A stretch of 64,000 bases of DNA, taken from Timaviella obliquedivisa GSE-PSE-MK23-08B. Its GTDB lineage: Bacteria; Cyanobacteriota; Cyanobacteriia; Elainellales; Elainellaceae. Shown here in pieces: positions 1 through 19,785 of this stretch. Each line of letters begins with the position of its first letter. The first letter of the stretch is position 1. Location of the stretch: positions 1 to 64,000 of the forward strand of contig JAHHII010000006.1 of assembly GCA_019358855.1 (NCBI GenBank), written 5' to 3'. The position numbers and the translations under genes are program-made. A model generated the notes under the pieces. That model was given only the letters and a program-made list of their open reading frames with translations. It was not told the origin of the DNA and made no database searches.

Positions 1-74
1 GTCCAGTAGTCAGATTGCTGGGATATGCTTTACTCATATTGCTTTCTCGGTGCTGCGTGCTTTCTATTCGCAGC

Positions 75-557
75 TTACACTGAGAGAGCTTTTTTACCGA
101 CTAGCTGACTTTTCAAACATCCTCTAAGATCCCGGTTCAAGCTGGTGATTGCTCCAAGATAGCCTCGACTCCTTGCAATCTCGTAGGCTTCCCCCCTAGA
201 CAACCGCCGATCGCCCAATTCCTCCCCTTCAGATTGCTCTGCAACAGGCTTATTTTTGCTGTGGCGTTTGTTTCCTTGGGCTTTTGGCTGATGCTCTAGT
301 ATTGTCAGGGTTTCAAGCTTTCCCCTTAATTCCTCAACTTCCTGCCTAATGGGGGCTAATGCCTTCTCTATTTGGGAATTTATGTTGCTGGGTGTGGCGA
401 TCGGCTCTACGTCTAGACGCTCGTCTATACCACTGAGGTATTGGTCAATGAACTGTTTTAATAAGCTACTAGCGCTGGTATGCTGTTTTGCCGCTACGTC
501 AACGAACTCTGACCAGCGATCGCCATTTATTTTGAAAGTAGCTAGTTTATGAGACAT
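75..557 (-). CDS. Ribbon-helix-helix DNA-binding protein of the mobile element
   Basis: A 160-residue protein. Residues 5-45 have the short strand plus two helices typical of plasmid ribbon-helix-helix repressors (TFKINGDRW, then a helix ending near SLLKQFIDQYL). A coiled-coil-like stretch follows (about 60-88, IEKALAPIRQEVEELRGKLETL split by charged residues), then a basic linker and a C-terminal RGEAYEIARSRGY segment. RHH proteins bind palindromic operators as dimers, and three GTATA-type half sites lie directly upstream of its start (565-593), so autoregulation is likely. The last codons (106-125) coincide with a 20-bp sequence identical to the end of the MITE at 26670-26822, so the native C-terminus may have been replaced. 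Role as a plasmid-type regulator is inferred. Confidence 0.65.
   Translation of the reverse strand: MSHKLATFKINGDRWSEFVDVAAKQHTSASSLLKQFIDQYLSGIDERLDVEPIATPSNINSQIEKALAPIRQEVEELRGKLETLTILEHQPKAQGNKRHSKNKPVAEQSEGEELGDRRLSRGEAYEIARSRGYLGAITSLNRDLRGCLKSQLVGKKALSV
106..125. repeat. Solitary MITE/IS terminal sequence inside a gene end
   Basis: TGACTTTTCAAACATCCTCT is identical, over 20 bases, to the reverse complement of the left terminus of the inverted-repeat element at 26670-26822. Only one end is visible here; the outer edge would be at 125/126. It forms part of the last codons of the RHH gene. Confidence 0.6.
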
Positions 558-916: not shown

Positions 917-3118
917 ATGGTTCTAACTTTGCCAACTTACAACCCCACGATGGTCGTTAGCGACATCGCTCCTGGCGGCTTCGACCATCCAGCGGGAAAG
1001 GGTCTGATTCAATTCAATATCCGCATCCTCACCAGCAGAAATGAGGTCGTTATTGATTTCGGGGAATTCGAGGATCTGATCTCGTGGCGTAACACCATCA
1101 GCGTAGAAGGTGCATCAGGTTCATTTACCTTCAGAATGCGAGTAAGCCTGTGCAATGAAGAACTGCTTAAAAAAATCCATCCTGGCTTGGTTGTTGAGGC
1201 TTACTGCGCTCGTAACGATGATTCACTCAGGGGTGTAATTCGTGATCCGTCAGTCATCCGAAGCACGATCGCTGATGCAGTTCCAGGGAGGGTAATTAGA
1301 ACCCCTGAAGATGGCGAAACATCGGTACAGGTTTACGATCCAACAACTGAACCGATATTCCCAACTAACCCAGACCCCGTAGAGGACGCTTATTTAGATA
1401 AAGCACCCTATCTGCTGCTGCGAGGGATTATCACCGATTACGGGCGATCAAGCGGTGATGGAGCTAGCTTCCTATTTGTCACAGGTGAAAGCTACGGCAA
1501 GCTGTACAAAGATGCTTTTGTCCTCACTGATCTTCATGCTCCCAGCCCGTTTACACAAGCCTTGGAAGTTCGCAAAGAAACTCAAATTGAGGACGGTGCA
1601 GCAATCATTTACTACCGATTGTTGCGTGACTGGGTAGAGCATTTCTGGGAAGAAGAAACAGGATGGGAAGCTCGAACCCGACCGATTCCCTATCCTCCTA
1701 ACTACGTAGCGCGTATCAATAATGAGGGTTCTGTCTGGTCAAATCTTCAGTTCCTAAGTGTGGAAGGATTTTTTCACATGTTCGTAGACCACACTGGGGC
1801 GATCGTCTGGGAAAAGCTACCTTACTCAGGCAAAGATAGAGCGCTGATACCTGGGCGGGAATGGGAAGATTTGCCCATGTTGGCGATACCAAGCTGGAAG
1901 ATCTTGAACTGGAGCGATCGCCTCTCAGAGCAGGGTGTGACCAATTACCTCCGCTGCTGCGCCACTCAACAAGCAAGCTCTGGCGGGCAGGAGCAGGCGG
2001 CAGAGGCGGGTTTTATTTACAACATGGGCAGTATTCGACAATATGGTGGGCCTAACAAGAGAGAGTTCTATTTCCCGATTGGCATTCAGGATATTGATAA
2101 CTGGTACACATCCCCACCTAGAAGGGCGCAACAGGCGCAGAACAACACATTCTTAGACTACTGCGCGATCGAAGCTATCTATTGGTACGATCGCCCCATT
2201 CAACGAGTCGGTGTAACAGTGCGCGGTGAGGCAGCATGGCGGATTCATACTCGTGTCAACCTTAAAGAAGATTGGCATTGTCCTGATGCAGTTCCCGGTG
2301 AGTATTATGTGGTGTCAGTCACCCATCAGCTTGATATTGAGACTGGAGCATGGAGCTCTGACTTGGAGTTGTTGCGCGATCGCCGTCAGCGTTATCTCGG
2401 CATTGGCGTAGGTGCAACCCAGCAGATCGGGAACCTACTTCCGCCGTTGTCTGCGGGCGTGCAGGTCAACTCATTGGATTGGAGAATCGGAGACACGGTG
2501 ACCAATAACGGCTTTAATTTTGTTTTTCCCGACGATCCAGATATTGAGGTAGACAACCAAGCAGAGCTATACCCTGATGAATACTGGTTTTACGATCGCA
2601 CATCTAATAAAATCATCAACATCGGTGGTGATGCCCTGGCGTGGGCTAATGAAAACATCGCTCCTAAATTAGGGCAGAATGATCAAGCAATTACCATTCC
2701 TAACTCAACCTTGATCACGACTTATCCACCCGTCACAGAGGCGATCGCCCCTTATGGCGTGGTCGATTTAGGGAAAGAAGTATTTGGCGCAAATAATATT
2801 TATCAGTTCGCTATTGACCAGGCAGGCAACAGGTTTGTTAACGTTCCGGCTCCAGCATCGGGGCGGGTGGTGCGATCGGAATTCTTACAAGGCTTGGGTA
2901 ACACGGTAGAGATTCAAGGCGCGGATGCCTTGAATTTTCAGTTGTCGTTACTAGATACGATTGCTGTTCGACCAGGGCAGCAGGTGAACCAAGGGCAAAC
3001 GATCGGAACTCAGGGCGATAATTTGCGGTTACAGATTCTACAAAATGGCATCCCTGCTGATTCGAGCATTTCGGATACTCTAGCGGCTGACTATCTCAAC
3101 TTTTTGCGCGGGAATTGA
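917..3118 (+). CDS. Putative phage-type tail-hub/baseplate-like protein with degenerate M23 domain
   Basis: 733 residues, with a strong AAAGGAG ribosome-binding site 6-7 bases before ATG. The first 250 residues have a beta-rich layout (an ISVEGASGSFTFRM strand, then LLLRGIITDYGRS) that resembles D-like or gp44-like phage tail hubs; this is an impression of fold, not a motif match. The C-terminal 90 residues follow the M23/LytM pattern (PAPASGRVV, then VRPGQQVNQGQTIGTQGD). The metal-binding HxH position reads LRLQIL and the HxxxD motif is absent, so peptidase activity is unlikely. It is the largest gene at the left of the element and is followed by RusA and an HTH protein, which points to phage ancestry. 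It could also be an adhesin or an injection-related protein. Confidence 0.5.
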   Translation: MVLTLPTYNPTMVVSDIAPGGFDHPAGKGLIQFNIRILTSRNEVVIDFGEFEDLISWRNTISVEGASGSFTFRMRVSLCNEELLKKIHPGLVVEAYCARNDDSLRGVIRDPSVIRSTIADAVPGRVIRTPEDGETSVQVYDPTTEPIFPTNPDPVEDAYLDKAPYLLLRGIITDYGRSSGDGASFLFVTGESYGKLYKDAFVLTDLHAPSPFTQALEVRKETQIEDGAAIIYYRLLRDWVEHFWEEETGWEARTRPIPYPPNYVARINNEGSVWSNLQFLSVEGFFHMFVDHTGAIVWEKLPYSGKDRALIPGREWEDLPMLAIPSWKILNWSDRLSEQGVTNYLRCCATQQASSGGQEQAAEAGFIYNMGSIRQYGGPNKREFYFPIGIQDIDNWYTSPPRRAQQAQNNTFLDYCAIEAIYWYDRPIQRVGVTVRGEAAWRIHTRVNLKEDWHCPDAVPGEYYVVSVTHQLDIETGAWSSDLELLRDRRQRYLGIGVGATQQIGNLLPPLSAGVQVNSLDWRIGDTVTNNGFNFVFPDDPDIEVDNQAELYPDEYWFYDRTSNKIINIGGDALAWANENIAPKLGQNDQAITIPNSTLITTYPPVTEAIAPYGVVDLGKEVFGANNIYQFAIDQAGNRFVNVPAPASGRVVRSEFLQGLGNTVEIQGADALNFQLSLLDTIAVRPGQQVNQGQTIGTQGDNLRLQILQNGIPADSSISDTLAADYLNFLRGN

Positions 3119-3738: not shown

Positions 3739-3791
3739 AACTCTCTAAAATAGAAGCATCACAAGCATTATCACGATCGCACAGGCACCCA

Positions 3792-4250: not shown

Positions 4251-4254
4251 TTCG

Positions 4255-4277
4255 TCACTTGTAAAAACAACAAGTGA
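4255..4277. repeat. Inverted repeat TCACTTGT/ACAAGTGA
   Basis: An 8-bp perfect stem with a 7-base loop, 5 bases after the upstream stop codon. The same arms form the centre of the perfect palindrome at 13710-13731, so this is either a shared binding site or a weak terminator. Confidence 0.55.
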
Positions 4278-4398
4278 GGGTATTGAAGAACCCACCACGT
4301 AAAAACCATTCCCTACAAGCTTCTCAAGCGATTTAGAACTGTTTTCCCACCACTACCGAGATTACGTCAAATCGCTTGAATGCCCACCCTGAGCGCAT

Positions 4399-4797
4399 TT
4401 ATCCAACCGGAGAAGCAAACCGATCGCCCCCAATGTATCTCCACTGGGTTTCTTGCTCAAGCCATTTTTGAACGGGAATGTGATTCCAATCAGCCTGAAA
4501 AGCTGCGTTCGCAATGTTGAACCGCTGACAAAGTTGTGGCATGGTGAGTTCCTCGACGGCTGGGGCGATCGCTGTACCATTTCCCAATGAAATAACTAAA
4601 TTCTCTAGTTGGTTCAGTCGGTCAGAAGTCAGGCGATCGCCAAACGATTCCCCACGTTCTAAAGACTGGATCAATTTTTCTAGTGACTTGACGATTGTCG
4701 GGGCATCGCCAGTCCTACAAAGTTCATTAAGCTGCCCGACAGATTCAGCAATCTCATTCCGAACTCGGATCATTTTGCTTAGTTGAGTCGTTCCCAT
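4399..4797 (-). CDS. Hypothetical protein of the mobile element
   Basis: 132 residues, predicted largely helical (residues 1-70). A C-terminal segment with conserved-looking aromatic residues follows (TMPQLCQRFNI, then WNHIPVQKWLEQ and WRYIGGDRF). The ATG has a good Shine-Dalgarno sequence (CAGGAG, 9 bases upstream), which supports the start. The C-terminal part could be a small winged-helix or effector fold, but no family is recognised. It faces the rusA/HTH genes convergently. Confidence 0.6.
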   Translation of the reverse strand: MGTTQLSKMIRVRNEIAESVGQLNELCRTGDAPTIVKSLEKLIQSLERGESFGDRLTSDRLNQLENLVISLGNGTAIAPAVEELTMPQLCQRFNIANAAFQADWNHIPVQKWLEQETQWRYIGGDRFASPVG

Positions 4798-4980
4798 TCT
4801 CTAAATCTCCTGCTTCATTTTCTTGGTGATAGCACTAGAGTAAATTATGAATTGCTTATCAATCGTTGTTTTGAAGGTGTTTTCACGATGTTTTTGCAGT
4901 TTGGGTGATATCACCAGCTTATGAGTTGCCCTTTTTTCGGGAACGGCGATCGCCCCTAACGAAGTGATGCGGGTTTTATG

Positions 4981-5024
4981 CCTCTACATGAATTATCTTC
5001 ATTAATTCATGTAAAATATAGAGG
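4981..5024. promoter_or_regulatory. Nested inverted repeat before the compact recombinase
   Basis: ACATGAATTA (4986-4995) and TAATTCATGT (5003-5012) form a perfect 10-bp inverted repeat with a 7-base spacer. It is flanked by CCTCTA (4981-4986) and TAGAGG (5019-5024). A 12-bp palindrome, GGTGATATCACC, lies at 4904-4915. The structure ends 20 bases before the recombinase start, so it may be an operator or the recombinase's own binding site. Confidence 0.5.
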
Positions 5025-5044
5025 TAGGCAAGCAGGTCCAACTC

Positions 5045-5641
5045 GTGAAGAAGTACGAAAAGAAGACAGACAGAATTACTAAGCCCGAAGGTAAGGCGGC
5101 GGTGATTGGCTCTGAGGATATGGAGAGATTGTTTAGTCATGAGGAGGGCTTTCAGTCCATCCGCGATCGGGCGCTCTTTGGAATCTGCCGTTTCACTGCT
5201 TGCCGAATCAATGAAGCTTGCCAGTTGCGCTCTGATGATGTGTTTATGCCCAGCGGCAAAGTGAAGAAGGAGATTATCTTTAGAGCCTCGACGACTAAGG
5301 GCGGGTATGGTGGCAAAGCTGTTAAGGTCTGCGATGAGTTGCGCCAACTGCTAGAAGAATATGGGCATCCCGGAAAAGTTCAGTTATTTCCTGGTCGGCA
5401 TGGTTTAGGGCATATCAACCCTGTCTCTGCTTCCAATATCTTCAAGGAAGTCTGCGATCGCCTCGACTTGGATCACGTTTCCACACACAGCTTCAGACGG
5501 ACATCGATCAACCGACTGAGAGAAGCTGGGTACAACCTAGAAGAAATTAAGACTGTCAGTGGGCACAAGTCCATGAGTGGGCTGGCGGCTTACCTTGAGG
5601 TCACAGACAAAGCTCGTACTGATATGGTTTCCTGCCTTTGA
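5045..5641 (+). CDS. Compact tyrosine recombinase (site-specific integrase)
   Basis: 198 residues from a GTG start. This is essentially the catalytic domain alone, lacking the N-terminal arm-binding and core-binding domains of ordinary integrases (about 300-400 residues). Catalytic residues are visible in order: R in TACRINEACQL, K in STTKGGYGGK, HxxR in THSFRRTS, H in VSGHKSM and the Tyr nucleophile in LAAYLEV. It may act on plasmid dimers, as an inversion or resolution enzyme, or as a partner of the full-length integrase at 18461-19561. A hairpin terminator follows (5730-5768) and an inverted repeat precedes it. Confidence 0.8.
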   Translation: MKKYEKKTDRITKPEGKAAVIGSEDMERLFSHEEGFQSIRDRALFGICRFTACRINEACQLRSDDVFMPSGKVKKEIIFRASTTKGGYGGKAVKVCDELRQLLEEYGHPGKVQLFPGRHGLGHINPVSASNIFKEVCDRLDLDHVSTHSFRRTSINRLREAGYNLEEIKTVSGHKSMSGLAAYLEVTDKARTDMVSCL

Positions 5642-7431: not shown

Positions 7432-7704
7432 TCACCAAACCAAAAATCTACAAAGCCAATGAGCTAGTTTTTGAGCAACATTTGGAAATTTCCCGAAGCG
7501 CTGAGTGCTAACTCTTTTACCGCCTCCTAAAAAGATATGGATGACCCAAATATGTAGCCAGTGCGGTAGGTTCATCCCATGCACTCGATACACCTCTTTG
7601 CCCAGCGCCTTGTAGGTGAAATGATGAAAGCTCCATCCCTTCCGAGGCTTCCATTTCTTTCGGGCACGTTGCAGCGAATTGTAGTAGGAATCTGAATGTT
7701 TCAA
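7432..7704 (-). CDS. Small very basic hypothetical protein
   Basis: 90 residues from a TTG codon at 7704-7702, chosen because a near-perfect Shine-Dalgarno sequence ATTAGGAGG ends 6 bases before it. The reading frame itself extends further upstream to 7758. The protein is rich in Lys, Arg, Trp and His (KKWKPRKGW, GMNLPHWLHIWVIHIF). It could contact DNA or membrane, but no family is recognised. It is the first gene after the repeat cluster at 7761-7923. Confidence 0.5.
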   Translation of the reverse strand: MKHSDSYYNSLQRARKKWKPRKGWSFHHFTYKALGKEVYRVHGMNLPHWLHIWVIHIFLGGGKRVSTQRFGKFPNVAQKLAHWLCRFLVW

Positions 7705-7760
7705 GGCGTTCCTCCTAATATTTTGAAGGTTTGTACTGAGTGAAAAAGATACGGTCAACA

Positions 7761-7923
7761 GCGGTCTGCAATAGCGGTCTGCACGTACAGCTAGGAGCAG
7801 TCAGCAGCAGTCAGCAGGTGCGGGTCTGCAAGCTTGCAGACTCTAGAGGGGCTGCAAGCAGTCAGCAGGTGCAGACCGTTTGATCCTTATGCCTTTGAGG
7901 TTGCAGACCGCTTTTGCAGACCG
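7761..7923. repeat. Cluster of 8-bp repeats GGTCTGCA/TGCAGACC: candidate cis-acting transfer locus or origin
   Basis: GGTCTGCA occurs at 7763-7770, 7776-7783 and 7823-7830. Its complement TGCAGACC occurs at 7870-7877, 7902-7909 and 7915-7922, with a 7-base version at 7835-7841. Most copies extend to CGGTCTGCA. The 7824-7841 segment is a perfect 18-bp palindrome with halves GTCTGCAAG and CTTGCAGAC. CAGTCAGCAG is interspersed at 7798, 7808 and 7859, and GCAGTCAGCAGGTGC is exactly repeated at 7807 and 7858. The cluster fills the gap 3' of the FtsK-like gene. Clusters of 8-bp sites just 3' of traB are the transfer loci of Streptomyces plasmids; replication iterons are the main alternative. Confidence 0.75.
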
Positions 7924-7957
7924 TCCAGAAAAATCGCACGTTTTCATGTCGAATCCT

Positions 7958-7981
7958 AAAAAATAGCTAGTTACTATTTTT
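7958..7981 (-). terminator. AT-rich hairpin at the end of the translocase gene
   Basis: AAAAATAG (7959-7966) pairs with CTATTTTT (7974-7981), directly abutting the translocase stop codon. On the minus strand the hairpin is followed by T residues. The weak A-T stem makes termination uncertain. Confidence 0.3.
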
Positions 7982-9940
7982 CTAGCTGTGAAAGTAGAGG
8001 TGAAATTTCTGGGTATCGGTCAGCACCCATTCGCCAAGCCCATCCTCAACCAATTGCGACAAGTAAAACCGTGCGGCGATCGCATCTAGCTTTAGTCCTT
8101 TCGCCTTGAAGTAAGTCAATATTGACCGAACATCAATCACGCCATTCTCGAAGTATTTTGAGCCAGTTGTTTGCATCCAGTTTTGCAGCCTTGAATAAAC
8201 ATCAGGATCAAGCTCGATCGCCTCGTCCCCTGCCTCGTTTTCCGCCACCTTCTCGACTACTAAATCCGACAGTTTGAACCACTCAAACCCAGGCTTAATA
8301 TCGACAGCTTTAAGCTGATTTAACTTGGCTAAGAACTTAGCGAAGCCCATTAGATCTGGGTAAGAAACCTTTAGCGACTCCGGCAAAGCTTCAAAGGTTT
8401 TGGCGACTGATAGCCAGCCTTCCTCATCTACTTGCAACTCGATTGCCCATTCGATAAACGGCTTCAGAGTCTCAGGTACAGACACAGGTTGCACTGTTTC
8501 AACGGCGGCGGGTTCATCGACATTTATGGAAATATCAGGCGTAGGACTGCTGTAAAGCTGAGTCATGCTCTGGTTGTGAGCCTCCCCGTTTAACCGTCCT
8601 GGATCATGTTTGTATGCCGTGGGCAGCAAAACAAACTCCCAATCGCCCTCAATGTTGGTGAGGGCGATCGCCTGTCCAGTCGGCTCAACCATCGGTCGAA
8701 TCCTGACGAACTCAGCACTCAGCTTTTGCCGTTCGTCCTTGGAAAACAGCACTTGATTGTTCAGCACTTTACCGATTAAGGCGAACCCATCACCCTTTTC
8801 AACCTTGCGACCCAACACCGCGCAGACCAGGGATTGAGCCGTATCGCCATCAATGCCCAACATCCCCATCAGGTTGCCGTGAGCCGTTAGGATGCCTCTG
8901 ATATTGCGCTCCCTGCCTTGAGTTGCAATGAACTTGAGGTTAGATTTAAGCGTCTCTTCAGGCTTGCGTCCGTATGCGTTGCCCTGACACTTGGCTTGCT
9001 CCAAACCGTTGTTAATTTCATCGCACAGCAGATACAGCGGGAACTCTTCATCTCGGTTTCCCAACATCTCTACGACGTTCCCGATCGCCTCAGCCGCAAA
9101 CTTGTAATCCCGACCAGGCGCGGGGCTGGTGATGAATGACTGAGAACGCTCCAAGCCGCAAAAGTGACCCGTAGAACCCTTGAAGTCAACGCCGACAAAG
9201 ACTTGCGCTCCATCATATTCCCGGTTAATAGCATGAATGACGTGCCGGATAAACGTTGTTTTGCCCACGCCACTAACGCCACTAACGAGCAAAGACTTAT
9301 CATTCTGGGCTGCGGCTGCGGCAAGGTCAAGTTCTCTAAACTGGGTTGCAGATTTGCTAGTGGGTAGGGCGATTTTTCCCAACTCAGTGTCCTCACCTTC
9401 ATCGTCTGGCAAGTCAGCAAAGGCTTCTTTCATTGCCTTCTCAGCACCCTGCATAAACTGTTGACCCGCTGACTGCTGACCTTTAGCAAACTCGGTAAGG
9501 TCATAGCGATCGGGGCGCACATGGAGCGGCAGTAGTTCGTAGTTTTGCTGTTGCAGTGCCAAGAATTGCGATTCTAATTCCATTGCCTGCGCCGAGCGGT
9601 AAGCTTCCCGGTTCAGATCTTTTCGGAACTCCCGGTCGTCCTCCGCTTCCTCGTCTTCTCCAGCCTGATTCAGCAGCCCTTGAGCCGCCAGCAGTGTTAA
9701 GGGAACCGAAGCTCCTTGCATAGCGATTTTTGCCTGATTCGGGGCTTGAATAAAGTATGGGGCAACGCCTAAGCTCATACCTGCTAGAGCCGCTAGAAGG
9801 GGATAGGGGCGTTTTCGGTGGAACGTTTGAGCGGCAAGGATTGCTAAAGCCGTTGCTAACTTTGCCGATCGTCTTGTTCGTCGTCCTAGTTCTTCGGAAA
9901 TCTCCTGAACGGGAATATCTAAACCATTAACGAGTACCAT
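7982..9940 (-). CDS. Membrane-anchored FtsK/TraB-like DNA translocase ATPase
   Basis: 652 residues from the ATG at 9940, chosen because GGAGG lies 7 bases upstream; the frame is open further, to 9976. Two hydrophobic segments near the N-terminus (LATALAILAAQTF and LLAALAGMSLGVAPYF) anchor it. The FtsK/HerA-type motor follows: Walker A GVSGVGKTT with Lys227, FVGVDFKGS (the DxKG motif), Walker B LYLLCDE with Asp307-Glu308, and GILTAHGNL. The last 80 residues (LQNWMQTTGSKYF, then LSQLVEDGLGEWVLT) look like a winged helix. That matches TraB of Streptomyces plasmids, which moves double-stranded DNA through a hexameric pore and reads 8-bp sites with its winged helix. No relaxase is seen. A phage packaging ATPase is the main alternative. 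The start overlaps the 113-residue membrane gene by 22 bp. Confidence 0.75.
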   Translation of the reverse strand: MVLVNGLDIPVQEISEELGRRTRRSAKLATALAILAAQTFHRKRPYPLLAALAGMSLGVAPYFIQAPNQAKIAMQGASVPLTLLAAQGLLNQAGEDEEAEDDREFRKDLNREAYRSAQAMELESQFLALQQQNYELLPLHVRPDRYDLTEFAKGQQSAGQQFMQGAEKAMKEAFADLPDDEGEDTELGKIALPTSKSATQFRELDLAAAAAQNDKSLLVSGVSGVGKTTFIRHVIHAINREYDGAQVFVGVDFKGSTGHFCGLERSQSFITSPAPGRDYKFAAEAIGNVVEMLGNRDEEFPLYLLCDEINNGLEQAKCQGNAYGRKPEETLKSNLKFIATQGRERNIRGILTAHGNLMGMLGIDGDTAQSLVCAVLGRKVEKGDGFALIGKVLNNQVLFSKDERQKLSAEFVRIRPMVEPTGQAIALTNIEGDWEFVLLPTAYKHDPGRLNGEAHNQSMTQLYSSPTPDISINVDEPAAVETVQPVSVPETLKPFIEWAIELQVDEEGWLSVAKTFEALPESLKVSYPDLMGFAKFLAKLNQLKAVDIKPGFEWFKLSDLVVEKVAENEAGDEAIELDPDVYSRLQNWMQTTGSKYFENGVIDVRSILTYFKAKGLKLDAIAARFYLSQLVEDGLGEWVLTDTQKFHLYFHS

Positions 9941-10260
9941 GCCGCGCATCCTCCAAATAAGATTGCCGTCGCCCAAATTGCTAACCCGATCGTCTCTTGT
10001 GTCAAGTCGCCCATAGTTACCCGCTCACCACCATAAACTGCATCACTCATGCTGTTGAAGTGGTAGTGGGGGCTGTTGAGTTGAGAGCGATACAGCATCC
10101 ACTTAAACGCCAAAATCACAGCTTTGATGATTAGCAGTAGGGCGATCGCCCCAATCATCCATCCCGTGATAGGAAACATTGCCGCTAGTCTTACAAGAAA
10201 ACTAGCGGCAACCGAAGCGCTGAATCTTAGTAGAAACGCTGCTAGTTGCCGCTTAGTCAT
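9919..10260 (-). CDS. Small polytopic membrane protein
   Basis: 113 residues with about three membrane helices: AAFLLRFSASVAASFLVRLAAMF, GWMIGAIALLLIIKAVILAF and IGLAIWATAILFGGCAAWY (each split by turns). The Shine-Dalgarno TAGGAGA lies 7 bases before ATG. It overlaps the translocase gene by 22 bp, so the two are probably made together and could form a membrane complex. No family is recognised. Confidence 0.65.
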   Translation of the reverse strand: MTKRQLAAFLLRFSASVAASFLVRLAAMFPITGWMIGAIALLLIIKAVILAFKWMLYRSQLNSPHYHFNSMSDAVYGGERVTMGDLTQETIGLAIWATAILFGGCAAWYSLMV

Positions 10261-10272: not shown

Positions 10273-10746
10273 CTATGCTTTTTGCTTAGAGCGTGAACCT
10301 TGAAGCATGGCGGCGGGTCGGCTGGCTGATTTGAGTTCAGCCTTTTGCTTCCAGTCATTAGCGCGTGTGACAAGATCCGTCTTGCGCTGTGCCTCATTGC
10401 CCATGATCTTGTCGAGGGCAATACCCAAGGCTTGAAGACTAACCCGCAACTCTGCCTCTGCCTTATTTTTGGAGATCTCGCGGCGGATGATTGCCTTTCG
10501 CAGATCAGCCAGCTTCTTGTAAAACTCTGCCTCCAGTTCTGCAACCTTTTGGGCGTAGGGCATGATCGAAAGCCCAGCGTTCAGAGATTCGATCCGCTGT
10601 TTCATTGCCTCAACTTCATCCTTTGCCGAGCCAGCATTGAAGCCTAGATAATCCCCGTGATCGAGGTTGTAGCCTTGGGGCATCTGTGCCATAGCTGCAA
10701 AACCTTGATTGCCATTACCATTAGTCTGATTCGATGTTTTAGACAT
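10273..10746 (-). CDS. Coiled-coil protein of the translocase operon
   Basis: 157 residues. The N-terminal 30 are Asn-, Gly- and Gln-rich and probably disordered. Residues 45-150 are a long, highly charged predicted coiled coil (EVEAMKQRIESL, KVAELEAEFYKKLADLRKAI). No signal peptide. It lies 12 bp before the membrane protein gene in the same operon. Function unknown; a scaffold or DNA-associated role would fit but is inference. Confidence 0.6.
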   Translation of the reverse strand: MSKTSNQTNGNGNQGFAAMAQMPQGYNLDHGDYLGFNAGSAKDEVEAMKQRIESLNAGLSIMPYAQKVAELEAEFYKKLADLRKAIIRREISKNKAEAELRVSLQALGIALDKIMGNEAQRKTDLVTRANDWKQKAELKSASRPAAMLQGSRSKQKA

Positions 10747-11014: not shown

Positions 11015-11107
11015 TTAGTTAATGGGCGGCGGTGGAAGTGGTGGAAGTGGGGGTGGGCTGCATCCAAAAAGCCCGATCAACAGGAGCAAGGCGATCGCTC
11101 TTTTCAT
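11015..11107 (-). CDS. Tiny Pro-rich lipoprotein
   Basis: A 30-residue protein with a complete lipoprotein signal: MKRAIALLLLIGLFGC, where LFGC is the lipobox. A mature peptide of only 15 residues follows, mostly Pro (SPPPLPPLPPPP). The Shine-Dalgarno AGGGGG is 5 bases upstream, and its ATG overlaps the TGA of the preceding gene (ATGA at 11104-11107). Very short lipoproteins of this type occur as lysis or entry-exclusion peptides and as Rz1-like spanins. Which applies here is not known. Confidence 0.65.
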   Translation of the reverse strand: MKRAIALLLLIGLFGCSPPPLPPLPPPPIN

Positions 11108-11340
11108 GGGTTCCCCCTCTTAGATTGGGCGATCGCCTCATATCCTTCCAGTGCCAGCCCTGCGAGAATTAGGCAGGGTGGAATCTTAAATAGTGCGGAG
11201 CCTCTAATTGACGGGGCAAAAAAGGAACCCAGCACCACCAAAATCGTGAGGACAGCACCAGCACCACTGACCCAGTACCCCGTCCGAGTCATAGCAGGCT
11301 CAGGTTTTGAAACGCGCTCTAGAATGCGCTGAATTAGCAT
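11104..11340 (-). CDS. Small two-helix membrane protein
   Basis: 78 residues with two predicted membrane helices (WVSGAGAVLTILVVLGSFF and FKIPPCLILAGLALEGY). GGAGG lies 8 bases before its ATG, inside the end of the preceding 56-residue gene, whose TAA directly abuts this ATG. The stop overlaps the lipoprotein start. Two-helix proteins of this size include holins, but also conjugation components; no family is recognised. Confidence 0.6.
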   Translation of the reverse strand: MLIQRILERVSKPEPAMTRTGYWVSGAGAVLTILVVLGSFFAPSIRGSALFKIPPCLILAGLALEGYEAIAQSKRGNP

Positions 11341-11511
11341 TTACTTTCCTCCAAGATTTGATAGAACAAACTTGATAGCGGTGTTCTGTATAGATGGCTC
11401 TAAGCCAGTCTTAAAGCCAATTTCAAAGGCTTTAAGGTGGGTATAGCTGAGAACCGTTAGGACTCCCAAGAGGAACACCAGATTGAGAACCGTTTTGAAC
11501 GGGTTGAACAT
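11341..11511 (-). CDS. Small single-pass membrane protein
   Basis: 56 residues. ATG 11511 is preceded by TAAGGAGG, the strongest ribosome-binding site in the operon. Residues 8-23 (VLNLVFLLGVLTVLSY) form one membrane helix; the rest is amphipathic. Its first 80 nt overlap the end of the 154-residue gene in another frame, an unusually long overlap if both are real. Its TAA abuts the next ATG. Confidence 0.6.
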   Translation of the reverse strand: MFNPFKTVLNLVFLLGVLTVLSYTHLKAFEIGFKTGLEPSIQNTAIKFVLSNLGGK

Positions 11512-11896
11512 AGACCTCCTTAGTTTGAAATGACGTAACTAGACCGCATAAAAACACAGTCATTAGACCGACAAAAGAAACCTTACAGACAATCCCAATC
11601 TGTTGACTAGCAAGGGCTTCACGGTATTCCTTTAAGTCACGGTCTTTAACTTTTCGCGCATAACCTGCGAGGTTGTTAATCGCTAATTGAGTCCTAGTTA
11701 AGAACTCGTGAGCATTGGGCGGCAAGTCGTTATAGATCGTCACATCCCCTACCCGATCGCTTAGATACTGGAAGTTGGCGGCAAGGGCATCCAGCTCCCC
11801 GATCGGTCGGGCGATCGGGGTGGGTTCCCGTGGCGCTGGTATCGGCGGCGGAATGCCCAACACCAGCGGCTTAGGTTTGCGTTTTGTTTTCTCCAT
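11432..11896 (-). CDS. Single-pass membrane protein with Pro-rich N-terminus
   Basis: 154 residues from ATG 11896, preceded by TAGGAGAGAG; the frame is open further, to a TTG at 11911. A basic and Pro-rich N-terminus (KPLVLGIPPPIPAPREP) is followed by a helical region and one membrane helix near the C-terminus (VSFVGLMTVFLCGLVTSF), then a Gly/Ser/Gln-rich tail. It resembles bitopic proteins with a cytoplasmic or periplasmic arm. No family is recognised. The 3' end overlaps the next gene by 80 nt. Confidence 0.55.
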   Translation of the reverse strand: MEKTKRKPKPLVLGIPPPIPAPREPTPIARPIGELDALAANFQYLSDRVGDVTIYNDLPPNAHEFLTRTQLAINNLAGYARKVKDRDLKEYREALASQQIGIVCKVSFVGLMTVFLCGLVTSFQTKEVYVQPVQNGSQSGVPLGSPNGSQLYPP

Positions 11897-11903
11897 CTCT
11901 CTC

Positions 11904-12107
11904 CTAGGCAACTGCCATCAGCCGCATGGTCAGCACTTCCACCAACTGCGGCTTAGTCATTCGGGAATAACTTGGAATGCGGCGCAACTTTGCAAGCTGT
12001 TTCAGTTGGCGGATCGTGTGGTCAATCAGCCGCTCATAAAGTGGCTCGGTGGGCAGTAGAGAGAAGGTCAAAGCAGGGGCAGACTTTGGGCGTTCTAGAG
12101 TTAGCAT
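11904..12107 (-). CDS. SAP/Rho-N-like DNA-binding protein
   Basis: 67 residues. The C-terminal half matches the SAP/Rho-N helix-extended-loop-helix pattern (LKQLAKLRRIPSYSRMTKPQ then LVEVL). This motif binds nucleic acid in many plasmid and phage proteins. The Shine-Dalgarno AAGGAG lies 8 bases before ATG. It is placed between two membrane-protein genes in the operon, so it may bring element DNA to the membrane complex, which is inference. Confidence 0.65.
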   Translation of the reverse strand: MLTLERPKSAPALTFSLLPTEPLYERLIDHTIRQLKQLAKLRRIPSYSRMTKPQLVEVLTMRLMAVA

Positions 12108-12119
12108 TGAAAAAGCTCC

Positions 12120-12254
12120 TTACTTGGTAGATTCGAGTGAAGTGGGCTGGTTGGGGGCGGTTCTTTCCAGGGAAGCCCCCATCTGATTTGAAACAAGTGA
12201 ACCAATAATCAACAGGATTACGGTGTAGAAACCGTAAAACCAAACAGCATTCAT
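12120..12254 (-). CDS. Tiny single-pass membrane protein
   Basis: 44 residues. ATG 12254 is preceded by TTAGGAGG with 5 bases spacing. Residues 5-22 (WFYGFYTVILLIIGSLVS) form one membrane helix, followed by a short polar tail. It ends 12 bases before the SAP-protein start. Function unknown; size, TM and position match other members of the operon. Confidence 0.55.
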   Translation of the reverse strand: MNAVWFYGFYTVILLIIGSLVSNQMGASLERTAPNQPTSLESTK

Positions 12255-12272
12255 CTTTTCCTCCTAATAGAT

Positions 12273-12341
12273 TCAGTTGGCGCGATGCCAGAGACGATCA
12301 AAGGCTTGACTGTCGATGTCTCCAGCTTCATAGGCATCCAT
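12273..12341 (-). CDS. Possible coupled micro-ORF or frameshift extension
   Basis: A 22-codon frame (MDAYEAGDIDSQAFDRLWHR and two more residues) whose ATG overlaps the TGA of the 153-residue gene as TGATG. Its composition looks protein-like. It is either a translationally re-initiated micropeptide or the true C-terminus of the upstream protein displaced by a frameshift. There is no independent ribosome-binding site. Confidence 0.25.
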   Translation of the reverse strand: MDAYEAGDIDSQAFDRLWHRAN

Positions 12342-12802
12342 CAAGAAGCGGCGGATAGTTGGCGTTGGTTTCTGGCAGCGGCGATCTGTTTGCTCTTGGC
12401 TCCCGAAGCTTCTAGAAGAACTCGAAAGTCTCCCATTCCCTCGATCGCCCCAGAGAAGCAATGCGTCTCGGTAGGCTTTCCCGGCTCTGTTACTCCGCTC
12501 TCTTCCAAATACATCACCGTCAATTGGTCTACCAGTTGGGGATAGGCGGCGATCGCCTCGGCTTGCTGCCTTGCCTGAGTTTGGGCAGCACTGACAAGCG
12601 ACTGAACCAAGTCAGATCCAGCATTAGCGGTTTCAATCACCCGTTCCCGTGCTGTGCCATGGGTGTCGGCTGTAACGATGCCCTTTTGCTCAGTGGCTTC
12701 AGTTGGCTGGTTGGGGCGATCGCCCTTTGCCTTCGGAGTGAAACCTTTGCCAGCGGTGGAGCCGTTAGCGGTTGCGTTTAATTTGTCGGTGTTAATAGCC
12801 AT
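12341..12802 (-). CDS. Hypothetical protein of the translocase operon
   Basis: 153 residues. The first 60 are Thr/Asn/Gly/Lys-rich and probably disordered. A helical middle (SLVSAAQTQARQQAEAIAAY) precedes an LTVMYLEESGVT segment. No membrane segment and no recognised domain. Its start overlaps the end of the regulator gene by 11 bases and its stop overlaps the start of a possible 22-residue frame. Confidence 0.55.
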   Translation of the reverse strand: MAINTDKLNATANGSTAGKGFTPKAKGDRPNQPTEATEQKGIVTADTHGTARERVIETANAGSDLVQSLVSAAQTQARQQAEAIAAYPQLVDQLTVMYLEESGVTEPGKPTETHCFSGAIEGMGDFRVLLEASGAKSKQIAAARNQRQLSAAS

Positions 12803-13154
12803 TAGTCGTTAGTTCCTTTTGAATGATTTGGGCAAATGTTTGAATCGTCTTGCCTCGCCTTAACCAAAAAATGAGACGGGCAAGAATGGTTAAGTCTTCT
12901 CTGGAGTAACAGCCGAACTCATCCGGTTCTATTCCAATCTGAGAGATCCACCGCCTCAAAGTGGAGGCTGGGACAATATCGCCTTTGTATTTAGCAAGGG
13001 TGATCTGAACTTCTCTGAAGGTGTACAGCGAAGTTTCTAGAACCTCCATTGAAGTCTGTAATACTTGCGCTGCTTGCACTTGGTGTCCCTCTGTGGTTCT
13101 AGTGTGGTGCTCTAGTGGTGCGCTCATGGTTGAGCCATCTCTGCACCACTGCAA
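12792..13154 (-). CDS. MerR-like winged-HTH regulator, first gene of the minus-strand operon
   Basis: 120 residues; the true start may be the internal Met at residue 10 (MSAPLEHH). The C-terminal half has a helix-turn-helix arrangement close to MerR-type regulators (IVPASTLRRWISQIGI, then YSREDLTILARLIFWLRRG). It lies at the head of the operon, divergent from an RHH gene, with two 21-bp direct repeats between them (13161-13212). It probably controls the operon. Family placement is tentative. Confidence 0.55.
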   Translation of the reverse strand: MQWCRDGSTMSAPLEHHTRTTEGHQVQAAQVLQTSMEVLETSLYTFREVQITLAKYKGDIVPASTLRRWISQIGIEPDEFGCYSREDLTILARLIFWLRRGKTIQTFAQIIQKELTTNGY

Positions 13155-13160
13155 AACATC

Positions 13161-13212
13161 TTAAGTAACTAATTTGGAACTGTCAACATTTTTAAGTAAC
13201 TTAAATGGAACT
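13161..13212. promoter_or_regulatory. Direct-repeat operator in a divergent promoter
   Basis: TTAAGTAACT-N5-GGAACT occurs at 13161-13181 and again at 13192-13212, exactly 31 bp apart (three helical turns). It lies between the divergent HTH and RHH genes. This is the layout of a regulator-binding site shared by both promoters. Confidence 0.6.
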
Positions 13213-13269
13213 AATTTTGTAAGTTATGGCATAATCGGCGTATTGAGTGCTGTCAGAGGTATCATTTGC

Positions 13270-13659
13270 ATGAAGGAATTGAAGGATTTGGCGATCAAGG
13301 TGACAAAGCGAGTAAACATTTCGTTGAGTGACGGGCTTTATGCTGATCTGGAGGTTTGGGCAGATCAGGAGAAAAGCTCACCTACGGCATTAGCTGGGAG
13401 CATTGTCGAAGGTGCGGTTCGTTCAGCGAAACTAAATGGTGTGCTACGAACTAAGAACCCGATCGCTGATTACAGAAGTTTTGTTGGCTTGATTAAGCAG
13501 AATCTTTCCACACTTGTAGAGTCAGGAAAGTTTGAAGCAAATCGGCTTAAATATTTGATGGATGGCAACCTTCCAACAGAGGTTGAACTGCTTAGAATAG
13601 CTCTGTTGATCGGGGTGTCAGAGGACTATGTTCAAGCGCTTCCAGTGAAAGAGTCCTAG
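13270..13659 (+). CDS. RHH-type DNA-binding protein with C-terminal HTH-like region
   Basis: 129 residues from ATG 13270 (AGAGG 10 bases upstream). The frame is open to 13174, but that start lies inside the operator repeats. Residues 10-50 (VTKRVNISLSDGLYADLEVW, then SPTALAGSIVEGAV) are a ribbon-helix-helix. The C-terminal part (RLKYLMDGNLPTEVELLRI, then GVSEDYVQAL) resembles a phage-type HTH. Divergent from the operon regulator, so it is probably part of the element's maintenance/transfer switch. Confidence 0.6.
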   Translation: MKELKDLAIKVTKRVNISLSDGLYADLEVWADQEKSSPTALAGSIVEGAVRSAKLNGVLRTKNPIADYRSFVGLIKQNLSTLVESGKFEANRLKYLMDGNLPTEVELLRIALLIGVSEDYVQALPVKES

Positions 13660-15271: not shown

Positions 15272-15481
15272 ATGGGTCTGGCTCAAATTGCTATGAAAAT
15301 CATAACGCACCCAAAGCAGAAAAATCAAAGATTTGCTCTCATTAACTACCCCAAGTCTTGCTCCCAATGCCGATCGCGGCTAGTGGCTGAATACACGTTG
15401 CCGAGAAATCGATCGCACTGCGGTGGCGGTTTTTGCACCACTTGTGACAGATGGGTGGAGATCGGGGGGGTAGCACGATGA
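15272..15481 (+). CDS. Small zinc-ribbon protein
   Basis: 69 residues; an internal Met at residue 8 is an alternative start. Two metal-ligand pairs (CSQC, then HCGGGFCTTC) form a zinc ribbon. Its stop overlaps the primase start (ATGA at 15478-15481), so the two are translationally coupled. Likely a DNA- or primase-associated accessory protein; the partner role is inferred from the coupling. Confidence 0.6.
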   Translation: MGLAQIAMKIITHPKQKNQRFALINYPKSCSQCRSRLVAEYTLPRNRSHCGGGFCTTCDRWVEIGGVAR

Positions 15482-18195
15482 CACACCCGCTAGAACCACA
15501 CCTTGATAAATTTGAGCGAAGCTCCAAACCTGGAAAATTTAATTGCCCTGCTTGTGGAGGCAACAATTTGTCAGTCAACGCCACGACCTTTGCGCACGAG
15601 TGCTATGACAACGGCTGCACGGCTCGGCAAATCCTAGATGTGATTGCACCCCTCCAGCCGAACGATCGCCCGATGGTAAGTCGGCAGATCTTGAAGAAGG
15701 CAACGATTGAAGCTCCAATACCACAAGGTCTTTGCCTAGAAATTCCAAGGCTTGCTGATATTCCTAGCGATATCCCAAAGCCTTTTAAGCGCAAGGATCA
15801 TAAGCATGGAGAAGTGCTAATCACGCGCTACCCTTACTCAAACTCTCAACATGCCGAAAGGAAGCAGTGGGATGACGCAACAAAACCTAAAGGTTATGAC
15901 AAAGACTTCCACCCCTACCACCGAAAAGGCGATCAAGTTGTTTGTGGCAAGGGTACAGAGGCTTGGGGGGCTTACCGCCTTGAGGAAGCGATCGCAGCTT
16001 CCATAGCTTCAGGGAGCAAACTAATTCTGTCTCAAGAGGGCGAAACTTGTGTTGAGTTAGGGCGATCGCACTGCATTCCATCGTTTACCTTCCAAGGCGG
16101 CAGTTGGTCTGGGAGCGATGTCGCTGTCGTGGCGGCACGAATCAAGGCAGAGGGAATGGTCTGGGTTCATATTGAGGACAATGATGCTGCTGGGCAAACC
16201 AAGGCTCAAAAACTTAAAGAGAAATGCGCTGAAGCAAAAGTTCCTTTTATTGCGATCCCAATTACCTCTATCTGTCCCGAAGTTCCAGAGAAGGGAGATC
16301 TAAAGGAATGTCTTGAATTGGTAGATGTGGAAACGTTCGTTTCACTGCTTTCCAAAGCAATCCAAAGCGCGATCGCCATGCCTTCGCCCAATGCTAAGGC
16401 TGAGGTCGGCAGCGAACCGAGACAGGTAGGTGAGACGATCGCGCTACCTTCATTGAGTGCAGAGCCTTGTGATCCGTACCGTCTCACCGATGCGGCGGCA
16501 ACTCTCGATCACCACCTGAACATTCATTTGTTTAAGCAAGGAACAGGAGCCTACATTGTCATGGAGGGAGCTTTTTTCTGGTGGAATAACAATTTGGGTG
16601 TATGGGAAAATCAGCCCGACGACATAATTAGGCGGTTGGTTGCAGATGAGTCTAAGAAGGTCTACGCTTCACGGATTGTAAAAAACGGTGATGGCTTTGA
16701 GGAGCGAAAAACGTTTAAATATGCGACACATCGGAACGTTACTAGCGCGATCGGATACAACCGAGATCAGCTAGCGATTTCTAACTCTGAACGAACTTAC
16801 AATGAGTCGTTGATTAATTTTACAAACGGGGTTCTTGACGTTGGAACCGGGGAGTTTCGGGCAGAGCACCGAAGAAATGATTATCTGACTCATCAAATCC
16901 AATCCCAGTTCCAGCCTGGTTCTGAGTGCCCGGAAGCATTTTTAGAATTTGTTAAAACCTGCTATGGACTAGATCAACTCGACACTATTCAAGCAGTCGT
17001 TCGATATTACATTGACTTCACTTTGCCCTATGGCAAGTTCGTTCATTTGGCTGGAAAATCGGGGACGGGTAAAGGCGTTCTGCTGCGGTTCCTATCTGAT
17101 TTGCATGGCAGCTTTGCGAAAGGGTTGGGTGAGGATTTCGAGGCTGTATCCAAAGCCGAAACTCGTCACCAATACCTGACAGGCACACGAATAGGAGCAT
17201 TTCCCGATATCTCTTCAAGTATCGGCAAGCTTGGGGCATTTTACGAATTAGTAGACAATGGCTCCCTAACTGGTCGTCCACTGTTCTCGTCATCGGGTTA
17301 TCAAAAAAGGTGGAACGTTCGCTTTTTGACAGCAAGTACCCAAGAAATTCAATTTGAGGATTCTAGCCGGGGATGGGAGCGGCGATGCTTCCCGCTTCAA
17401 ACGCTCGATAGGCAAGGCGTTGAAAATCCCGATTTAGAGGCGGGTGTACAAGCCTGCATAGGCGAAGTAGTTTCTTGGGCGATGTCGATGGAGCGATCAC
17501 GGGTTCAAGAAATTTTGTGGCAAACTACGCCACAAACCCAGGAGCTTAGAGATGCACAGGCGATCGCGTCGGATTCGGTTGCCTCGTTCATCGATTTTTG
17601 CCTTGCTCCTGATAACCAAGGCGTTCCGATTTCCAAGGCAATTCTTTATCGCCAATATGCCGCTTACTGTGCGGCTACTGGACTAAAACCGAAGGGATAC
17701 ATGAGGTTCTGTACAGTTATGAAAGCGTCTCTAGGCAATCGCTTTGAGACTGGCAGGAGTAGCAGAATCGTAGACGGGAGCAAAGTAAATGTTCCAGCTT
17801 GCTTCTCAGGATTTAAGCCTATCAATAGGCTTTTTACCCCTCGCAATGCTGGCAGCACGATCGAAAATTCGGAATACGATTGTAATCTGAAGCATCTATC
17901 AGAAGGAGGCTTGGGGCTGTTCCGCGAGGCGATCGCCCCCACGGTCAAGGAGGTTGAGCCAGAACAGGCGCTTGCTACCGCAGAACAGCCGGAATCAATA
18001 AAATGGCAGCCTAAGATCGGGGATAAAGCATGGATCTGGCAATCTGAAATCAATGCTTGGCAAAAAGGGGAGATAACTGCTTTACCTGATCGATCCAACA
18101 ATCGCTGGATAGCCATGATCGAAAGCTCAGGAATCGAATGCAACGTTTACAATATTTCCCATTTATCTCGCTTTGAAACGGTAGCAACGGCATGA
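15478..18195 (+). CDS. Plasmid/phage primase-helicase (zinc finger, TOPRIM, D5-type SF3 helicase)
   Basis: 905 residues from ATG 15478. Domains in order: a CxxC...C...C zinc finger (FNCPACGGNNL, then HECYDNGC); a TOPRIM-like domain (LILSQEGETCVE with the acidic site, then HIEDNDAAGQTKA); a D5-N-like region (INFTNGVLDVGTGEF); an SF3-type motor with Walker A AGKSGTGKG (Lys532) and an RIGAFPDISSS region; and a C-terminal Tudor/SH3-like segment (PKIGDKAWIWQSEINAWQKG). It would prime and unwind the element's DNA and is the likely replication initiator. Coupled at both ends (ATGA overlaps) to the zinc-ribbon and excisionase-like genes. The C-terminal segment is an uncommon addition. Confidence 0.85.
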   Translation: MTHPLEPHLDKFERSSKPGKFNCPACGGNNLSVNATTFAHECYDNGCTARQILDVIAPLQPNDRPMVSRQILKKATIEAPIPQGLCLEIPRLADIPSDIPKPFKRKDHKHGEVLITRYPYSNSQHAERKQWDDATKPKGYDKDFHPYHRKGDQVVCGKGTEAWGAYRLEEAIAASIASGSKLILSQEGETCVELGRSHCIPSFTFQGGSWSGSDVAVVAARIKAEGMVWVHIEDNDAAGQTKAQKLKEKCAEAKVPFIAIPITSICPEVPEKGDLKECLELVDVETFVSLLSKAIQSAIAMPSPNAKAEVGSEPRQVGETIALPSLSAEPCDPYRLTDAAATLDHHLNIHLFKQGTGAYIVMEGAFFWWNNNLGVWENQPDDIIRRLVADESKKVYASRIVKNGDGFEERKTFKYATHRNVTSAIGYNRDQLAISNSERTYNESLINFTNGVLDVGTGEFRAEHRRNDYLTHQIQSQFQPGSECPEAFLEFVKTCYGLDQLDTIQAVVRYYIDFTLPYGKFVHLAGKSGTGKGVLLRFLSDLHGSFAKGLGEDFEAVSKAETRHQYLTGTRIGAFPDISSSIGKLGAFYELVDNGSLTGRPLFSSSGYQKRWNVRFLTASTQEIQFEDSSRGWERRCFPLQTLDRQGVENPDLEAGVQACIGEVVSWAMSMERSRVQEILWQTTPQTQELRDAQAIASDSVASFIDFCLAPDNQGVPISKAILYRQYAAYCAATGLKPKGYMRFCTVMKASLGNRFETGRSSRIVDGSKVNVPACFSGFKPINRLFTPRNAGSTIENSEYDCNLKHLSEGGLGLFREAIAPTVKEVEPEQALATAEQPESIKWQPKIGDKAWIWQSEINAWQKGEITALPDRSNNRWIAMIESSGIECNVYNISHLSRFETVATA

Positions 18196-18460: not shown

Positions 18461-19561
18461 ATGACATTAGAAGAAGTTAATGCACGTCTCAAGGCGGCAA
18501 AAATTGGCATATCCATTGAATGTAGAGGCGATCGCCTGTCGCTCCGTGGCACGCTCCCACCTAAAATTAAACTGGGAGAGACGAAAACCAAGCAAAGAAC
18601 TATCCCTCTTAAGATTTACGCTAACCCCGCTGGGTTAAAACGGGCAGAGAAAGAAGCGCGGAAATTAGGGGGGCAACTAGGTTGTAAAGAGTTCAATTGG
18701 GACGATTGGGAAGATGAACCCGAACCTGATCAAGAAACGGTTTCAAGTTGGGTGGAACGCTTTGAGACAGATTATTTTAATAGGCGCTCACGCACTCCAA
18801 AATCAGAAACGACATGGCGTACAGATTACAGGCAACCGTTTAGCCAGTTGCCTTCTGATGCTTTGCTAACGGCTGAAACGTTGCGTCAGTCAATCCTTGA
18901 GACAGAACCCGACACACGCAACAGACAGCGGCGTTGTATGGCATTGGGGCTGTTAGCCAAGTTTGCGGGTCTAGAGCTAAATGCAACGGCTCTGAGAGGT
19001 GATTACTCACCGAAGCGCGTTAGTCCTCGTGACTTGCCCACCGATGCAGAGATCAGCCAGTGGCGCGATCGTATTCCTAACCTGCGCTGGCAGTATGCTT
19101 TCGGTCTGATGGCTTGCTATGGCTTACGCAACCATGAGCTATTCCACATTGACTTAGAGAAGCTGAAAACCAATCCAGTTCTAAGCCTGATTGATGATAA
19201 AGACGGCGGCGGAAAGACGGGCGCTAGGCGGGTATGGGCTTGCTATCCCGAATGGTGGGACAAGTGGCAGTTGTGGAACGTTGATCTATTGCCTCAAGTC
19301 ACTGGGAAAACCAACTCAGACTTAGGCAGTCGAGTAACCATAGCGTTAAAACGATATGGGTTTTACAAGCCCTACAACTTACGCCACGCTTGGGCAGTGA
19401 GAACGCTTGAGTTTGATATCCCTGTGGAACTAGCAGCGCAACAGATGGGACATAGCCTCAAAGTCCACGACGAGTCCTACCACGCTTGGATCTCAGACGA
19501 TGTGCATCAACGGGCATTTGATCGAGCTATGCAGCGTCCCGATCGCCCACTAGCGCCCTAA
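18461..19561 (+). CDS. Tyrosine integrase of the tRNA-Phe-integrated element
   Basis: 366 residues, a normal integrase length. An N-terminal arm-type DNA-binding region (LSLRGTLPPK, then QRTIPLKIYANPAG) and a SAM-like core-binding domain precede the catalytic domain. The catalytic residues are R in CYGLRNHELF, K in DGGGKTGARR, the box YNLRHAWAVR (Tyr replaces the usual first His), H in QQMGHSLK and the Tyr nucleophile in DESYHAWI. It is last in the primase-RDF-integrase operon. 128 bp downstream is a tRNA-Phe 3'-half copy (19690-19734), the expected attachment site. Confidence 0.85.
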   Translation: MTLEEVNARLKAAKIGISIECRGDRLSLRGTLPPKIKLGETKTKQRTIPLKIYANPAGLKRAEKEARKLGGQLGCKEFNWDDWEDEPEPDQETVSSWVERFETDYFNRRSRTPKSETTWRTDYRQPFSQLPSDALLTAETLRQSILETEPDTRNRQRRCMALGLLAKFAGLELNATALRGDYSPKRVSPRDLPTDAEISQWRDRIPNLRWQYAFGLMACYGLRNHELFHIDLEKLKTNPVLSLIDDKDGGGKTGARRVWACYPEWWDKWQLWNVDLLPQVTGKTNSDLGSRVTIALKRYGFYKPYNLRHAWAVRTLEFDIPVELAAQQMGHSLKVHDESYHAWISDDVHQRAFDRAMQRPDRPLAP

Positions 19562-19689: not shown

Positions 19690-19734
19690 GGACTGAAAAT
19701 CCTCGTGTCCGGAGTTCAAGTCTCCGTCCTGGCA
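19690..19734 (+). other. Attachment half-site: 3' half of tRNA-Phe(GAA)
   Basis: The 45 bases contain a tRNA-Phe anticodon loop CTGAAAA, the 3' anticodon strand TCCTC, a perfect T-arm (CGGAG, TTCAAGT, CTCCG), the acceptor strand TCCTGGC and discriminator A. The matching 5' half (it would begin GCCAGGA) is absent upstream, and the 5' anticodon strand is already mismatched at 19689. This is the truncated copy left when an element integrates into a tRNA gene; the intact gene should lie at the other end, left of the window. Confidence 0.85.
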
Positions 19735-19785
19735 TTTAACCAAGGTAAGCAAAGACCCTAGTCGTAAGCGATTTGGGAATTTTTT

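Follow-up and report, generated by a model that had tools for sequence, protein, structure and literature searches.

A TraB-like DNA translocation module proposed for an integrative, plasmid-related element of the cyanobacterium Timaviella obliquedivisa

Transfer of double-stranded DNA by a single protein is known from the mycelia of actinobacteria, and a related pump is known from Thermus. The transfer proteins of Streptomyces, TraB or TraA (pSVH1, pWTY27, pIJ101), are FtsK-class ATPases of 630-740 aa that have a hydrophobic segment near the N-terminus and a winged helix at the C-terminus; these systems work without a relaxase or T4SS, encode small membrane proteins in the same operon and carry 7-8 bp repeats in the ~160-200 bp behind the transfer gene, as in pWTY27. 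The TraA protein of that plasmid comprises 688 aa with two TM segments, and its clt takes in 16 bp of traA and the neighbouring 159 bp, in which 7-bp repeats lie (PMC3583192). The layout of pWTY27, in which the clt overlaps the end of the transfer gene, is the same as that of the locus described here (PMC3583192), and the features given above for the Streptomyces proteins and systems in general are those that the two kinds of locus have in common, the hydrophobic segment being borderline in the window protein. The actinobacterial AICEs (pSAM2, SLP1) resemble it as integrative elements on which an integrase and a replication protein of the element accompany one FtsK-type transfer ATPase. ICETh1 of Thermus thermophilus, with its pump TdtA, is likewise an element at a tRNA 3' end with 46-47 bp repeats, one DNA-pump ATPase and no classical T4SS, and in the available part of its description clt-like repeats do not appear (PMC5365140). 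FtsK-type transfer figures in published surveys as an actinobacterial trait (PMC3158045, PMC3218068), a review of 2025 presents TraB for Streptomyces and does not mention cyanobacteria, and our search of the open-access literature turned up no relevant report of TraB/FtsK-type transfer in cyanobacteria.

The integrative element and its gene content

The window, that is, the whole stretch of 64,000 nucleotides that was analysed, forms the beginning of contig C6 in a genome of 4.9 Mb and contains part of an integrative element that continues on contig C19. The following features of the element lie in the window outside the ATPase locus itself:

1..125, no strand: right end of the multicopy insertion sequence (IS) splitting the element between C19 and C6, with a TAA target duplication
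917..3118, plus: 733-aa protein with a C-terminal M23 peptidase, with relatives on plasmid pSYN6312.01
5045-5641: small second tyrosine recombinase, with a homologue on pSYN6312.01
10273..10746, minus: 157-aa protein, with homologues 1.3-1.7 kb upstream of the ATPase at 8 other loci
11104..12802, minus: rest of the same-strand operon, small ORFs (from ORFs, membrane segments and families)
12792..13154, minus: HTH protein with weak similarity to MerR, first in the operon (Pfam)
13174..13659, plus: divergent ribbon-helix-helix (RHH) regulator, with the same relative position and direction in 8 relatives
15451..18195, plus: D5-type primase-helicase, opposite in direction to the ATPase at a distance of 7.8 kb, likewise arranged in 6 relatives
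18461..19561, plus: tyrosine integrase adjoining attR (family matches)
19690..19735, plus: attR, a 46-bp 3' part of tRNA-Phe(GAA), identical to attL on C19

The identical 46 bp that form attL lie within an intact tRNA-Phe gene on C19, 5.2 kb from the contig end. The end of C19 and the start of C6 are ends of the same multicopy IS (window 1-125; L052 19611-19734), their flanks have the TAA duplication in common, and a single open frame of 175 codons is restored when they are joined. The assembly is broken at many points by this IS, of which 13-14 end copies exist; here it interrupts the gene at 75-557. Since it has ~14 copies, the pairing of C19 with C6 rests on the att sites, the duplication and the reading frame together. 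Delimited in this way across the contig break, the element in tRNA-Phe measures ~24.7 kb without the IS.

The primase-helicase and integrase named in a preliminary description of this DNA are borne out as the D5-type protein and the tyrosine recombinase listed above, while its probable RDF found no counterpart: 18192-18458 is without a family match, and the product of 12792-13154 is weakly MerR-like. Within the operon, ORFs 11104-11340 and 11432-11911 each have a membrane segment, and 11904-12107 is weakly Rho_N-like. The element also encodes a RusA resolvase and an AlbA_2/Schlafen-type protein, and at 3792-4250 there is a weak terminase-small-like HTH match. Neither VirD4 nor the relaxase and VirB4 by which T4SS-type ICEs are recognized was detected with Pfam among the element ORFs of useful size, the part outside the window included, so the absence of all three noted earlier extends to the completed element. 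Equally, no large terminase, portal or capsid family was present in the element completed across C19 and C6; the capsid gene that had been proposed as part of a refuting observation, to be sought beyond the left edge of the window, was not found there. An AICE is recognized by an integrase, a RepSA, RepAM or Prim-Pol protein and an FtsK-type Tra; the replication protein here is of the D5_N type.

The M23 protein, a 132-aa ORF and the small tyrosine recombinase (917-5641) occur in the same order on pSYN6312.01 (L132) of Synechococcus PCC 6312, where two ORFs of the C19 part also have homologues. These common homologues indicate that the element is plasmid-related and modular. The family ATPase was not found in pSYN6312.01 with the family profile. 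The M23 protein was considered as a part of the machine and set aside, since on that plasmid it travels with the 5045-5641 recombinase and without the ATPase; it is probably not part of the transfer module.

An FtsK/TraB-class ATPase with a predicted C-terminal winged helix

The ATPase locus comprises the following features:

7432..7758, minus: 108-aa ORF adjoining the repeats, with a homologue near the ATPase of L105
7762..7923, no strand: clt-like repeat cluster, directly 3' of the ATPase gene
7796..7868, plus: 3 x AGCAGTCAGCAG (7796, 7806, 7857) inside the cluster (motif count)
7982..9976, minus: FtsK/TraB-class ATPase, 664 aa, TTG start, downstream ATG at 9940 (ORF and profile comparison)
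7985..8239, minus: predicted C-terminal winged-helix domain, aa 580-664, presumed repeat reader (AlphaFold, Foldseek/VIA)
9017-9037, minus: Walker B, aa 314-320 (D319-E320) of the ATPase ORF
9257-9280, minus: Walker A, aa 233-240 (K239) of the ATPase ORF
9919..10260, minus: small membrane protein, 113 aa, overlapping the ATPase start, with equivalents at the same place in relatives

The ORF and its Walker residues are real; the residues given earlier as 227 and 307-308 are K239 and D319-E320 when counted from the TTG, the shift of 12 arising because the earlier count started at the downstream ATG (9940). Taken alone, the protein matches Pfam FtsK_SpoIIIE with E 0.011 and 15.6 bits, below the gathering cut-off of 24, and among 26 relatives 5 reach E<=1 (best 3e-7); in the whole 4.9 Mb host genome no protein exceeds the Pfam cut-off for FtsK_SpoIIIE. 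Such a score would explain why standard screens overlook the ATPase. Sequence searches of Pfam, PHROGs and PDB with the single protein or a small profile returned mainly P-loop matches, and the nine-row family alignment holds no stretch conserved enough to serve as a search query.

Profile-profile comparison assigns the motor class. The family profile matches a profile of nine Streptomyces TraB proteins at 97.4% (hhalign, E 1e-11) over 153 columns, which represent the whole motor core including both Walker motifs, and a profile of four FtsK-type proteins at 97% (E 1.2e-11), the family 'GRERNIRGILTAHG' strand aligning with 'ARAAGIHLVLATQ' of FtsK. The packaging ATPase P9 of PRD1 reaches 92%, below both profiles, although as single sequences TraB (84-94%), FtsK-type proteins (57-97%) and P9 lie close together; F TraD, F TraC and M13 gp1, as single-sequence templates, stay at <=15%, gp1 under 1%, and Zot is absent among the Pfam matches listed for the relatives. 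The FtsK-type motor of the preliminary description is thereby confirmed, and the profile comparison proposed there places TraB and FtsK above the packaging ATPase P9. Being equally far from TraB and FtsK, the protein is better called TraB-like than a member of the TraB family; the two being equally close, the motor core fits transfer and segregation alike.

A full-length AlphaFold model built from two sequences has a pLDDT of 34. The one N-terminal hydrophobic segment, residues 60-78, is borderline (mean hydropathy 1.56) and is clearer in several relatives. The C-terminal 85 aa, modelled alone with AlphaFold, fold as a winged helix (pLDDT 77.9), in agreement with the domain postulated earlier; FtsK gamma (2ve8) is one among many winged-helix matches (Z 7.5, rmsd 1.7 over 61 residues), and this predicted fold is not specific to FtsK or TraB.

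A repeat cluster behind the ATPase gene and its recurrence in relatives

Directly 3' of the ATPase gene, six copies of GGTCTGCA lie at 7763, 7776 and 7823 on the plus strand and at 7870, 7902 and 7915 on the minus strand, three per strand and mirrored about a centre; with a further copy of GTCTGCA at 7835 (minus), seven GTCTGCA occur in 160 bp. Pairs of the cluster motif within 30 bp are found nowhere else in the 4.9 Mb genome. The cluster is a finding of the present analysis, the 8-bp sites of the preliminary description having concerned known systems only. The three AGCAGTCAGCAG copies inside it may be sites of a second protein.

An HMM search of 390 cyanobacterial genomes placed members of the ATPase family in 26 of them, and ~30 loci were collected, about 16-32% identical to the window ATPase except for one at 82%. 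Clusters of 7-8 bp motifs, detected without using the window motif, lie at the same 3' place in L037, L038, L040, L042, L039, L041, L043, L045, L106, L044, L090, L099, L103, L105 and L101, with the motifs GTCCACA, GTACACA, CCTGACA, GGTGACA, CTCATCAG, CTCAGCAC and others; the ATPases of relatives with such other motifs show about 16-30% identity. Counting mostly one locus per lineage, at least 5 copies are present in 9/22 ATPase 3' flanks versus 2/223 flanks of other genes (Fisher 3e-9), one of the two being the same ATPase cluster viewed from a neighbouring gene, and in the same test never in the 5' flanks of the ATPase. In 11 loci no repeat peak within the entire 10-20 kb exceeds that of the ATPase flank. 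The presence of repeats, mapped on the tree, requires three changes versus 9.6 with shuffled labels, a difference to which near-copies contribute. Repeats 3' of the gene are absent in L091, L093, L095-L098, L100 and L046-L048. As a positive control, the same detector was applied to nine Streptomyces TraB plasmids and did not detect a clt next to traB; 3' adjacency is thus no general rule for TraB, and support for this position comes from the published pWTY27.

In one lineage the sites of the cluster have evolved together. In L042, GTCCACA has become GTACACA in 6/10 repeat units, the C being kept in a copy inside the coding region and in three other units, while the close loci L037, L038 and L040, with partly conserved spacers, have C in every unit. 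A C-to-A change common to most units is expected if one protein reads them. In the group of L101, L102 and L105 the repeats are present and the ATPase is without a winged helix; the ORF after the repeats is HTH-like by eye (no Pfam match), as if binding were supplied in trans in this branch.

The order RHH regulator, 157-190-aa protein, small membrane protein and ATPase is conserved, with the primase divergent. Some relatives depart from the common pattern. In L094, six GTGTCTA at about 8401-8650 are perhaps a displaced cluster; they follow, at a distance of ~400 bp, an ATPase that possibly has a winged helix. A second cluster with a different motif (GTTGAC core), probably an origin, lies in or at the primase gene (L037 18376-18658, L040 18550-18830, L042 711-991, L103 about 7276). 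L099 and L104 have an N-terminus like that of L041, and L099 also its C-terminus, with a different ATPase core, which suggests a swap of the motor core. In L092 (9240-10844) the family ATPase is fused to a C-terminal M23 peptidase, and a possible lysozyme-like gene follows. L105 and L152 (G212:C1) represent a prophage-like region in which portal, scaffold, major head and terminase genes adjoin an ATPase with repeats.

Transfer, segregation and other readings of the locus

In our view the locus is, with a probability of roughly 0.55, a TraB-like module for translocating double-stranded DNA, carried by an integrative, plasmid-related element. The single-ATPase transfer module of the preliminary description is upheld in part: its anatomy is well supported by the FtsK/TraB profile, the winged helix, the 3' clt-like cluster, its recurrence and the absence of a relaxase or T4SS, and the protein, as far from TraB as from FtsK, is better described as TraB-like. 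That the ATPase would pump DNA loaded at the repeats is well supported, and its use for transfer from cell to cell is inferred. Judging by its fold class, the ATPase would form a membrane-anchored ring, and its C-terminal winged helix would bind the GGTCTGCA repeats that directly follow the ATPase gene, with the result that only the excised element would be loaded, as the position, the uniqueness and the concerted evolution of the repeats suggest. The ring may then pump the unprocessed double-stranded circle across the membrane, possibly helped by the small membrane proteins encoded upstream, as by the Spd proteins in Streptomyces, which these proteins resemble as small membrane proteins of the same operon. 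The destination would most likely be a neighbouring cell, perhaps the next cell of the filament, where the D5 primase-helicase would replicate the element and the integrase would insert it into tRNA-Phe. Several observations weigh against this reading: the equal closeness of the motor core to TraB and FtsK, the borderline hydrophobic segment of the window protein, the relatives that lack 3' repeats or an ATPase winged helix, the nine Streptomyces plasmids in which no clt was detected beside traB, and the outer membrane and periplasm of cyanobacteria.

The main rival is a segregation or positioning motor, for which the repeats would be a centromere-like site and by which copies would be pumped through the closing septum as by a private FtsK, no DNA reaching another lineage. 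The equal similarity of the ATPase to FtsK and TraB, the host genome without an FtsK_SpoIIIE match over the cut-off and site-specific loading, which suits segregation equally well, all agree with it. We nevertheless regard it as rather unlikely: an integrated element has little need for segregation, the elements of L037, L043 and L044 carry their own actin-like partition ATPase (phrog_691), which weakens this rival, and the L092 fusion to an M23 peptidase hints at work on the envelope. FtsK itself, whose gamma domain is similarly a winged helix that reads an 8-bp site (KOPS) for a motor core, has its sites spread over the chromosome, whereas those of the window form one cluster in one element.

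Somewhat less credit still is due to the idea that the repeats serve as replication iterons, or as an operator of neighbouring genes, and that the ATPase is an unrelated DNA motor. Iterons are likewise clustered 7-8 bp repeats, the cluster sits between two same-strand genes, and the element encodes regulators; against this, the different cluster at the primase gene in L037, L038, L040, L042 and L103 is the likelier origin, and it is the ATPase that recurs beside the repeats, rather than any one downstream gene or a rep gene. It is very improbable that the ATPase packages the genome of a phage, membrane-containing or unusual in some other way, with the repeats as a pac site: PRD1 P9 and the A32 packaging ATPases are of the same superfamily, and L105 adjoins portal, major head and terminase genes, yet P9 scores lower, the completed element has no capsid gene, the phage region of L105 has its own canonical large terminase (phrog_38, 1e-99), and relatives of the ATPase were found neither in 50,697 phage records nor in the viral contigs scanned. 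Just as improbable is a role as coupling protein, through which the element would exploit a conjugation machine already resident in the cell; such proteins of T4SS belong to the same superfamily (PMC12857230), but the element has no relaxase, and TraD and TraC match poorly as single-sequence templates.

If the locus is a TraB-like module, it differs from its known counterparts in several respects. Unlike in Streptomyces, the ATPase scores under the Pfam FtsK_SpoIIIE cut-off and is equally close to FtsK, the envelope is of the Gram-negative type, the repeats stand in both orientations and the motif differs per lineage; cyanobacteria have an outer membrane and a periplasm, and Streptomyces lacks both. 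AICEs are actinobacterial, and they carry RepSA, RepAM or Prim-Pol where this element has a D5-type (D5_N) primase-helicase. Compared with ICETh1 (PMC5365140), no NurA-like nuclease or restriction enzyme was found in the element described here.

As far as the literature was searched, a TraB-like double-stranded-DNA transfer module on cyanobacterial plasmids and islands would be new to the phylum. The wider proposal, tentative and at slightly less than even odds, is that relaxase-free conjugative plasmids and islands are widespread in cyanobacteria, with FtsK-like pumps passing double-stranded DNA between cells, possibly along filaments, each pump being directed to a set of 7-8 bp tags of its own that lie behind its gene and change fast. 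If true, the same anatomy of motor plus tags would occur in a second large and often multicellular group, which would make the principle general, and it would help to account for how plasmids of cyanobacteria could move in some cases where typing calls them non-mobilizable. The pairs of pump and tag, whose motifs differ between close relatives by concerted change, make the evolution of specificity directly testable and could supply a transfer tool for cyanobacteria.
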